Origin: a virus
Length of the DNA stretch: 33,949 nt
IMG/VR virus record: IMGVR_UViG_3300011116_000787
Location: 1-33,949 of that record
Reading direction: 5' to 3' (one strand)
The notes under the pieces are model-generated. The model had not been told where the DNA came from. It saw only the letters and a program-made list of their open reading frames with translations, and searched no databases. Both the position numbers and the translations under genes were made by a program. Shown one piece after another: positions 3,779 to 10,587 of the stretch. Position 1 is the stretch's first letter; each line of letters starts with the position of its first letter.

Positions 3779-4003
3779 TCAGACTGCTTGCAGTTGACCG
3801 TCAGCACGATACTGAGCGATCAGTTTGCCAACGCTTTGACCACCAGCAATAGCACTCTCCAGACCTTCACGCACAAGGGTTTGATCCTTAGCGATGAAAC
3901 CGTATTCGGTATCGTTCGAGGTAAATTTCACGCCCACAGCGTTGTTATCACCGAAAGACACGGAAGCGACGGCGGAAGAGTTAGCGATGTTCAGAGTGTT
4001 CAT
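3779..4003 (-). CDS. KTSC-like domain small protein
   Basis: A 74-residue protein whose layout resembles the KTSC domain, a small fold named from the C-terminus of lysyl-tRNA synthetase. It has N-terminal Ser-Ser followed by a beta segment, then a V-x-F-T-S turn, a Y-x-F strand, a helix with Ala-Gly-Gly, and a C-terminal helix with IAQYR. Function is unknown in phages. It sits alone between two tandem promoters upstream and a strong terminator downstream, so it should be transcribed independently and heavily. It looks richer in GC than its neighbours. No strong Shine-Dalgarno site is visible. Confidence 0.65.
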   Translation of the reverse strand: MNTLNIANSSAVASVSFGDNNAVGVKFTSNDTEYGFIAKDQTLVREGLESAIAGGQSVGKLIAQYRADGQLQAV

Positions 4004-4075
4004 GATGAAAAAATAAAGTTAGGGTTTGACAATGAGTGTCTTTAGGGCGCATCTCATTCCCTTGATTACCTAGTA

Positions 4076-4104
4076 ATCTTACCACGAGGATCGTGGATTG
4101 TCAA
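4076..4104 (-). promoter_or_regulatory. Proximal sigma70-type promoter of the KTSC-like gene
   Basis: Perfect -35 TTGACA (4099-4104), 17-base spacer and -10 TAAGAT (4076-4081) preceded by TGG, an extended -10. One palindrome fills the spacer and a second overlaps the -10, as expected of operators. Confidence 0.65.
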
Positions 4105-4171
4105 GGGATTGATTGATCAGCGTTTCTTATCGGTGGGATAAGCGTTGCTGCCGTTTCCTGATTACTTAGTA

Positions 4172-4201
4172 ATCATACCATGGTGATCATGGATTGGTCA
4201 A
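4172..4201 (-). promoter_or_regulatory. Distal sigma70-type promoter of the KTSC-like gene
   Basis: -35 TTGACC (4196-4201), 18-base spacer and -10 TATGAT (4172-4177) preceded by TGG. The stop codon of the upstream sulfotransferase-like gene (4198-4200) lies inside the -35 hexamer. Confidence 0.6.
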
Positions 4202-4776
4202 GGGGTTGAACGATAAGGATTGATTATCAGTTCACCACCAGCGTCAACGATTGACTTATACAATATAATATCATTATTAAAAATGATGTTCATATCTTGA
4301 ATTATGTCTGAAGGTAATTTAGTTTCTTTTAAACTTTTGTTAAACGATTTAAGTTCAATTTTCTCATTGAAAATAGTTTCAATAAAATTACAAAATAAAT
4401 TCAAATGATTGAAGTCAAATAATCTATCAAGATATACTTTATTATTGATTGTTAATTGTTTATACTGAGAAATTCTTTTAACATTTTTATTTTCTTTCCA
4501 CCAGTTTTCAAATTTTACTGGTTTAAGACTTCTCAGTGAATTTTTATTATAAAATGAAATGCATCTTTGAATAGGTTCTCTAACAACAGCAATTTTGTAA
4601 TAATTATTTTCAATAAAAGGAACTATAATTTTATCGAAGTCCTCTGCATTTATATGCCTATATTTTGGACCATCAATAGAAACATCAAATAGATGTTCTA
4701 AAGATGAATGAATAGATTGAGATGCTGTTCTTTCAAAGGTAAAAACAACTAACTTGTGTTTATGTGAAATCAACAC
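4198..4776 (-). CDS. Sulfotransferase-like protein
   Basis: A 192-residue protein resembling the PAPS-dependent sulfotransferase family. FERTASQSIHSSL (residues 14-26) fits the 5'-phosphosulfate loop, and REPIQRCISFY (66-76) fits the 3'-phosphate motif with its Arg and Ser. Such enzymes move sulfate from PAPS to a sugar, lipid or peptide; the acceptor here cannot be told. The start is a GTG inside the last codons of the upstream gene, and no strong ribosome site is seen. The gene is visibly AT-richer than its neighbours and sits between core phage genes, which suggests acquisition. An inactive relative is possible. Confidence 0.65.
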   Translation of the reverse strand: MLISHKHKLVVFTFERTASQSIHSSLEHLFDVSIDGPKYRHINAEDFDKIIVPFIENNYYKIAVVREPIQRCISFYNKNSLRSLKPVKFENWWKENKNVKRISQYKQLTINNKVYLDRLFDFNHLNLFCNFIETIFNEKIELKSFNKSLKETKLPSDIIQDMNIIFNNDIILYKSIVDAGGELIINPYRSTP

Positions 4777-4916
4777 TTGATGCCAACATACTCAAACTCC
4801 TCTTCATCTGACGAATCATTTAGTGTCAGATTGCAAAAATCTTCATAGTCAATGCCAAGATACTTAGCAAAGTCTTCATAATCATCGTGTGATTTCAAGT
4901 CTCTTTCAGTTAGCAT
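4770..4916 (-). CDS. Small acidic hypothetical protein, start revised
   Basis: A 48-residue very acidic protein of unknown function, with a DSSDEEEFEY-type run near its end. A longer in-frame start exists at 4958. However, the sigma70-type promoter at 4943-4971 would start RNA downstream of that codon, and the ATG at 4916 has AGAGG seven bases ahead. I therefore use the shorter form. It overlaps the sulfotransferase-like gene by 7 bases. High negative charge could suit binding to a basic partner or mimicry of DNA, but this is speculation. Confidence 0.6.
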   Translation of the reverse strand: MLTERDLKSHDDYEDFAKYLGIDYEDFCNLTLNDSSDEEEFEYVGIKC

Positions 4917-4942
4917 GATGAAACCTCTGGATTTAGACTTAG

Positions 4943-4971
4943 ATTTTACGATGGACATGGGATTATGTCAA
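4943..4971 (-). promoter_or_regulatory. Sigma70-type promoter
   Basis: Perfect -35 TTGACA (4966-4971), exactly 17 bases, and -10 TAAAAT (4943-4948). The TGA stop of the upstream small gene (4968-4970) lies within the -35. It would transcribe the 48-residue acidic gene and perhaps the sulfotransferase-like gene. Confidence 0.6.
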
Positions 4972-6308: not shown

Positions 6309-6331
6309 TTTGGTGGACGGTTCATCAACTG
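6309..6331 (-). repeat. 23-bp element, copy 1 (upstream of CobS-like gene)
   Basis: This 23-bp sequence matches 20 of 23 positions of the element at 9936-9958. Its plus strand begins TTTGGTGGAC and ends CAACTG. Both copies lie between the 3' end of a cargo gene and the promoter of a cob-like gene, at the same distance (27-28 bases) from the -10. Confidence 0.6.
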
Positions 6332-9884: not shown

Positions 9885-9905
9885 TGCTTTTCTTGATTTG
9901 ACAGT

Positions 9906-9914
9906 ATCTTACCA
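9906..9914 (-). promoter_or_regulatory. Extended -10 promoter of the CobT-like gene
   Basis: TGG-TAAGAT on the minus strand, 22 bases before the ATG, the same distance as at the CobS-like gene. It starts immediately after the T-run of the terminator at 9914-9938. No good -35 is visible. Confidence 0.45.
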
Positions 9915-9938
9915 AAAAACCGCCCTCTCAGGCGGTTT
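9914..9938 (-). terminator. Rho-independent terminator after the methyltransferase gene
   Basis: An 8-bp perfect stem (AAACCGCC with GGCGGTTT), a 6-base loop and six T in a row on the minus strand, counting the end of the stem. It lies just after the FkbM-like gene and should separate that unit from the CobT-like gene. Confidence 0.85.
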
Positions 9939-9958
9939 AGTGGACAGTTCTTCAACTG
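9936..9958 (-). repeat. 23-bp element, copy 2 (upstream of CobT-like gene)
   Basis: Matches 20 of 23 positions of the copy at 6309-6331. Here it contains the stop codon of the FkbM-like gene (9952-9954) and touches the left arm of the terminator. Confidence 0.6.
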
Positions 9959-10587
9959 GTTTCTTTGATATACAATGCGTCTCCCCATCCAACACCTTTC
10001 CAATCAACAACTTTTCTTTTGAAGTTATATTCAAGTAAAAACTCATCAATATCTTCTATAAGAGCACAATTTTCATATAATTTTTTATTATTTACTTCAC
10101 AATAAACAGTATCAATGTGTTGTAATGTTTTTGTTCCACCCTTTAGAACTTCCAATTCATATCCCTGCACATCCATATTTAAAAAATTACATCTAGCACA
10201 ATCTTCATAATAATCATCTAACTTTTTGAGACTAACAAGTTCACGCTTATTGAAAATAATATCAGGATAATCTACAAGAACATCTTGTGGTTTTAAAACT
10301 GAACTACACTCTGTAAATGCAGGACTTACATACATTTCAACTTCTGTATTCTCATTACCAAGAGCAACATTATACGTTTTTATATTGGTATTGTGTTCAC
10401 TATTATATTGATTTGCACGATCTTGTAATTCAATATATGGATTTGGTAAAGGTTCAAACGAAACTATTGTTGTTATTCCTTGCTCAAAATAAGAAGGAAT
10501 TTCTTCACCTTTATTTCCACCAACATGAATTATACCAGATATATTAACTTGATGTTCTGATTGTATTGAAGCAATACTTATAATCAC
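9952..10587 (-). CDS. FkbM-type SAM methyltransferase
   Basis: A 211-residue protein with the layout of FkbM methyltransferases. HVGGNKG at residues 21-27 is the SAM-binding glycine loop, FEPLP (44-48) the acidic strand end, and NMDVQGYE (137-144) the conserved D-x-x-G-x-E block, followed by LKGG. Members O-methylate sugars or small molecules, which would fit surface-glycan or glycolipid modification. The start is a GTG 13 bases after the upstream stop, with no strong ribosome site. It is AT-rich compared with neighbours and looks acquired. The stop lies in a 23-bp repeat, followed by a terminator. Confidence 0.8.
   Translation of the reverse strand: MIISIASIQSEHQVNISGIIHVGGNKGEEIPSYFEQGITTIVSFEPLPNPYIELQDRANQYNSEHNTNIKTYNVALGNENTEVEMYVSPAFTECSSVLKPQDVLVDYPDIIFNKRELVSLKKLDDYYEDCARCNFLNMDVQGYELEVLKGGTKTLQHIDTVYCEVNNKKLYENCALIEDIDEFLLEYNFKRKVVDWKGVGWGDALYIKETS

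Follow-up and report, generated by a model that had tools for sequence, protein, structure and literature searches.

A tandem of candidate palindromic promoters and a conserved leader hairpin upstream of a KTSC-like viral gene

The promoter pair and its flanks

The window analyzed here is a viral stretch of 33,949 nucleotides (IMGVR_UViG_3300011116_000787). Three minus-strand genes frame the locus: ORF62 (4770-4958), a conserved upstream neighbor; a sulfotransferase-like gene (4198-4776; Pfam Sulfotransfer_2, E=2.8e-5), variable or absent in relatives; and a KTSC-like gene for a 74-aa protein (3779-4003), 3' of two promoter-like units and a leader hairpin.

The initial annotation described two copies about 96 bp apart, each with a sigma70-type promoter, a GATTACnnnGTAATC palindrome at the -10 and a second palindrome in the promoter spacer. 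All of these elements are present, on the minus strand. The proximal promoter, P1 (4104-4076), comprises TTGACA (4104-4099), 17 nt, and TAAGAT (4081-4076); the distal promoter, P2 (4201-4172), comprises TTGACC (4201-4196), 18 nt, and TATGAT (4177-4172). Each matches the sigma70 consensus at 10 of 12 positions and looks like a promoter. The proximal -10/+1 palindrome is GATTACCTAGTAATC (4064-4078; arms of 6, loop of 3) and the distal one GATTACTTAGTAATC (4160-4174); they are the only exact GATTACnnnGTAATC sites in the window. The spacer palindromes occupy 4082-4096 (minus strand CCACGATCCTCGTGG) and 4178-4192 (minus strand CCATGATCACCATGG). In the 5' to 3' direction of the minus strand, the distal unit reads TTGACCAATCCATGATCACCATGGTATGATTACTAAGTAATC and the proximal one TTGACAATCCACGATCCTCGTGGTAAGATTACTAGGTAATC. 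The copies lie 96 bp apart at the -10 side and 97 bp apart at the -35 side, since their promoter spacers differ in length (17 and 18 nt). At 96 bp they agree at 32/38 ungapped positions, and no other short-range direct repeat in the window does as well; the maximum in 100 Markov-simulated windows was 28/38 and the mean 24.9. A further feature, new to this analysis, is that the P2 -35 box includes the TGA stop codon of the sulfotransferase-like gene. As in the initial annotation, no regulator gene for the palindromes was identified.

The 74-aa protein had no significant match in a Pfam search, and members of its family score 12-14 bits to KTSC (PF13619), under the cut-off of 25. Its AF2 model (pLDDT 89.3) matched KTSC-annotated phage proteins in Foldseek (TMq 0.74, 0.63, and 0.72; E-values 0.005 to 0.3), with no useful match in the PDB. 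The predicted fold is KTSC-like.

Nine viral loci with a KTSC-like gene, retrieved by protein search, served as relatives. In six of them (L004-L009; KTSC 91-95% identical) the promoter and both palindromes are present and P1 keeps its position; the distal copy, and with it the tandem, is found only in the window, L004, and L005. Across these seven loci the arms of the -10/+1 palindrome are invariant in 10/10 copies, while the three bases between them are variable (TAA, TTA, TAG). Of the ten copies, nine retain an intact spacer palindrome. Two relatives (L010/L011; KTSC 84% identical) and a third (L012; 62%) have other promoters, and L010/L011 lack these palindromes. No such palindrome was found in the 150 nt upstream of the KTSC-like genes of S-CAM1, S-PM2, S-RIM44, ACG-2014e, and P-HM1. 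The initial annotation expected homologues to keep both palindromes and to show covariation in them. The closest relatives do keep both, but the innermost spacer pair is broken in L006, and the sole two-sided change in this set is CCACG/CGTGG versus CCATG/CATGG. That difference divides proximal from distal copies, and may represent a single event.

The flanks form a mosaic. Relatives with a single promoter have either a sulfotransferase-side or an ORF62-side flank; in the window, the two follow one another. The sulfotransferase-like gene ends right at the single promoter in L006 and L009; in L007/G001, it is reduced to its last codons 5' of a single promoter; in L008, it is absent, and ORF62 adjoins the promoter directly through the flank GCAACGCTTATC..ATAAG..AACCCC. 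In the window, L004, and L005, the order is sulfotransferase end, distal promoter, a linker resembling the L008 flank (4105-4158 in the window), and proximal promoter. Among relatives, then, the sulfotransferase module is present, truncated, divergent, or absent right up to the promoter. The gene (4198-4776) is 43-58% identical among relatives, compared with 71-95% for its neighbors, and its last residues are kept, the picture of a putative allele-swapping spot.

Exchange between promoter cassettes would produce just such a flank pattern; gain and loss of the sulfotransferase module are both possible. The mosaic tilts the balance modestly toward reading the tandem as a scar of gene shuffling. 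The duplication as a repressor or antirepressor circuit, suggested initially, is not supported: the flanks fit promoter-level recombination better.

Palindromic promoters in other genomes

A BLAST search of phages with the promoter copy returned chance matches only, mainly Pseudomonas phages. This proved uninformative, and pattern searches were therefore used. The pattern GGTATGATTACnnnGTAATC has matches in 26 viral contigs, for the most part placed as a promoter directly 5' of a small gene or tRNA; many of the viral contigs searched are fragments, and chance counts for such matches are inexact. Outside this KTSC family, the matches include three more divergent KTSC-like groups, several small genes, and a tRNA operon. 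One site lies within a gene (L035) and was judged to be chance; three others (L082, L083, L086) may lie outside cyanophages and be chance matches as well.

Cultured phages carry related sites. TAT[GA]ATTACnnnGTAATC lies 12-13 nt 5' of the cobS start in S-RIM8, QB2, and Syn9, and 11-15 nt 5' of small-gene starts in S-RIM44, S-CAM7, and S-CREM1; few matches were found to the reversed pattern that served as control. When cobS promoters were chosen without regard to the motif, 4 of about 21 had the palindrome, exact in G009 and with one outer mismatch in Syn9, QB2, and S-RIM8. The palindrome is therefore not required for a working promoter. In 172 kb of G001 there are two sites.

The host sites NtcA (GTAn8TAC), LexA, and Fur-type do not fit the palindrome, and the P-SSP7 MarR paper contains no site matching it. 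A search of 84,980 bacterial and archaeal genomes with TATGATTACTnAGTAATCA found five scattered stretches, none in a cyanobacterium, and these were set aside as background. Judged by this distribution, cyanophages reuse the -10/+1 palindrome as an optional module, putatively promoter and operator.

Two other site families came to light. An unrelated viral contig (L036, 1860-1980) has an array of five TGATTACTnAGTAATCA-like sites 5' of a 128-aa ORF. A dispersed palindrome, GTGnCAGTTnnnnAACTGTCCAC, occurs in the window on the minus strand at 9945-9958 and at about 6310-6330, and at many cyanophage loci. Its TGTCCAC end is followed 28-29 nt on by a TATAAT-like box in 9/13 forward cases, with scattered distances in the control direction. 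It has the look of an activator box for one class of cyanophage promoters, and it is present at most inspected cobS promoters.

The spacer palindrome has a narrower distribution. A 5-bp palindrome at the fixed register has a probability of about 0.002-0.004 per copy. When the 15-nt register is kept fixed, 4-5 of 5 positions are paired in the KTSC family and in L078 (p 0.001-0.03 each); L076/L091 and L086 also show stems once the register is moved by one base. Others, such as L085, L087, L089, and L082, have no spacer stem. The initial annotation had read the differing yet self-complementary spacers as what selection for symmetry would give. In favor of this are the compensated difference between the two copies and the differing self-complementary spacers of unrelated phages (L078, CCAG..CTGG; L076, CCCAA..TTGGG); against it, the spacer palindrome is missing from many promoters that have the -10/+1 palindrome. 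Spacer symmetry with changing sequence is thus real for part of the promoter set and absent from the remainder. Covariation, in the spacer palindrome as in the leader hairpin described below, comes to very few independent events.

A conserved 5' leader hairpin

Just 3' of the proximal promoter lies an element missing from the initial annotation: a 28-nt leader hairpin, GGGAATGAGATGCGCCCTAAAGACACTC (4034-4061, minus strand; covariance model match 4028-4062, 55.5 bits). The predicted transcript includes GGGAAUGAGAUGCGCCCUAAAGACACUC. An exact 22-mer from the leader is found in 21 viral contigs, and the looser pattern GGGAAUGAGAUGCGCCnnAAAGACACUC in 46 stretches from 45 viral contigs; the latter had no match in the 84,980 bacterial and archaeal genomes. 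The hairpin also is found in Synechococcus phages DSL-LC02, S-CREM1, S-P4, and S-E7. For this region, Rfam 15 yielded chance matches only, at either threshold, placing the leader in no family.

The leader precedes at least eight unlike small-gene families, mostly at 19-42 nt from the start codon (74 nt in L023). Small proteins with the pattern LL..G..G.EIL.ILD often follow it (for example, in L019, L020, L021, L048, and L055). In L022/L028, it lies between tRNA-Met and tRNA-Asn in tRNA clusters, with no evident protein gene 3'.

The search pattern itself sets most leader positions, which makes their invariance in part a product of the search. Two cases do not depend on the pattern: L012, which has a loop insertion and came from the protein search, and S-CREM1, which came from BLAST. 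The free stem positions occur in two combinations only, GAG-A-UG..CA-CUC and GAG-C-AG..CU-CUC. All five stem positions are paired in 38/38 aligned sequences, with one pair swapped from U-A to A-U. Sliding or shuffling the partners destroys the pairing, and 0/500 shuffles equaled the alignment on paired cells plus covariation score. RNAalifold recovered the same stem unprompted, together with C14-G27. The pair swap was probably one event, because all B-type sequences precede one gene family. Taken alone, the hairpin is not unusual in stability.

Searched with the covariance model, ten genomes or contigs had a single copy each, ACG-2014e had one weak partial match, and the other isolates searched, including Syn9, S-PM2, P-SSM2, and S-CRM01, had no convincing copy. 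The leader is single-copy in G000, G001, G005, G006, G008, DSL-LC02, S-CREM1, S-P4, and S-E7, though the 3' gene differs; the contigs behind L018/L030 have two copies. A leader that is mostly single-copy per genome is odd for a regulon operator. The hairpin probably acts as an RNA element. That GGGAAUGAGAUGCGCCnnAAAGACACUC defines a new virus-restricted class of cis-acting RNA (mobile from gene to gene, usually single-copy, at the 5' ends of small genes), and that a cyanophage regulator not yet described binds the palindrome and defines a promoter class, is a more tentative proposal to which we give somewhat less than an even chance.

A portable promoter cassette?

We propose that the locus holds a portable cyanophage promoter cassette that occurs twice, with operator, shuffling, and leader steps (probability about 0.5). 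The observations beneath this reading are the sequence itself, its conservation and recurrence, the flank mosaic, and one compensatory hairpin pair. Each copy would be a strong host-type (sigma70) promoter, as its consensus match and conservation suggest, with the transcript predicted to start at the G of GTAATC, about 7 nt past the -10 box. The GATTACnnnGTAATC palindrome would then reach from about -9 to +6, and a dimeric DNA-binding protein that blocks or times the transcript start most likely binds it. Symmetry, invariance, and recurrence make such an operator over -10/+1 about an even proposition. The spacer palindrome, which keeps symmetry and not sequence, may have a structural role or may be a relic of a promoter/stem-loop composite. 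Recombination at the promoter level would have joined a module of sulfotransferase gene plus promoter to a flank of ORF62 plus promoter, as in T4-type PeSL (promoter-early stem-loop) shuffling. Transcripts from either promoter would carry the conserved bulged leader hairpin, most likely a site for a phage or host RNA-binding factor that acts on the downstream gene.

Other explanations account for parts of this picture. The -10/+1 palindrome might be no operator, but TATGAT followed by a favored initial transcribed sequence, GTAATC[A/G]AG, that mirrors it by chance, the tandem being a plain duplication. Half of the left arm is indeed the -10 box itself, and GTAATC with purine-rich sequence persists where GATTAC is lost (S-RIM2 cobS, L061). 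However, a -10 box has no need of a following TAC or of an exact mirror, both arms are invariant in KTSC relatives while the 3-nt center varies, and the flanks of the two copies differ, each resembling a different class of relative; we consider a chance mirror rather improbable. Alternatively, the spacer palindrome could be a weak terminator that belongs to the upstream gene and is joined to the promoter, a PeSL-type composite with the -10/+1 palindrome as second stem. Such composites exist in this phage group: cobS and VWA-gene promoters have a clear terminator hairpin and T run just 5' of the -10 box (-20.6 kcal/mol, z -5.6), and differing self-complementary spacers occur in several unrelated phages. 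The KTSC promoter stem, though, has just 5-6 bp, and the two stems jointly come to about -8 to -10 kcal/mol; what comes after the stem is TATGATTAC rather than a T run, and a terminator scan of 4064-4201 found no terminator-like site, so this composite is unlikely here. The window has its own VWA-domain-like gene promoter (9885-9960, minus strand), where a strong terminator, CCGCCTGAGAGGGCGGTTTTTT, lies directly 5' of the -10 box in a clear terminator/promoter composite.

Two further ideas fare worse. In one, the KTSC-like protein would repress its own promoter through GATTACnnnGTAATC. Four divergent KTSC-like gene groups do lie behind the palindrome (the window, L075, L089, and L078), and KTSC has been called a DNA-binding domain (PMC9503650). 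Yet Syn9, QB2, S-RIM8, S-CREM1, and S-CAM7 have the palindrome and no KTSC-like gene by profile, and S-PM2, S-CAM1, ACG-2014e, P-HM1, and AG-345-D19 have the gene with no site found in the genome. Because gene presence does not track the palindrome, the KTSC-like product is unlikely to be a general palindrome binder, and autorepression is very improbable. The other idea, raised in the initial annotation, is an extruded promoter DNA hairpin that gates polymerase, as at N4 virion RNA polymerase promoters. Its basis is predicted folding: single strands form two hairpins better than shuffles do. Any palindrome has that property on paper, however; both promoters fit the host sigma70 consensus, and T4-like phages use the host RNA polymerase. 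Hairpin gating can hardly be credited.

The cassette reading bears on the poorly known gene timing of ocean-abundant T4-like cyanophages. Its palindromic promoter recurs in cultured phages such as Syn9, for which host systems that permit direct testing already exist. Compact and well conserved as an RNA, the leader hairpin might represent a novel type of phage regulatory RNA, and the promoter tandem offers a one-place view of promoter cassettes becoming gene-swapping joints.

Known systems resemble individual parts of the cassette. As in the operator-overlapped promoters of lac O1, tet, and lambda type, the symmetric site lies at -10/+1, where a bound dimer would block the open complex; unlike those promoters, this site has no cognate repressor found, and T4-like cyanophages are not known to have one of this kind. 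T4 middle promoters combine a MotA box with an extended -10. The related cobS-type promoters have a TGTCCAC box at a fixed distance 5' of a TATAAT-like box, although its sequence and position differ from the MotA box, and in its place the KTSC promoter carries a good -35 box. Like the translational operators of T4 RegA, gp43, and gp32, the leader is a short conserved 5' element before a start codon; it differs in sequence and structure, precedes many unrelated genes, and has no Rfam family.

The PeSL cassettes of T4-like phages, reportedly described by Arbiol in 2010 and Comeau in 2014, resemble the arrangement in several respects. They differ in that the stem here is weak and without a T run, with no intrinsic-terminator site at 4064-4201; in the extra fixed palindrome over -10/+1, followed by the conserved leader hairpin; and in the lack of many dispersed genome copies, given two exact GATTACnnnGTAATC sites per 34 kb here and two per 172 kb in G001. 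PeSL exchange was considered unlikely for the single S-PM2 region examined in PMC4503421. The likeness lies in a sigma70-consensus match, putatively an early host-type promoter, with a stem-loop at the borders of swapped genes; in promoter copies that match while gene content differs on one side; and in a gene-exchange border, marked here by variation of the sulfotransferase module.
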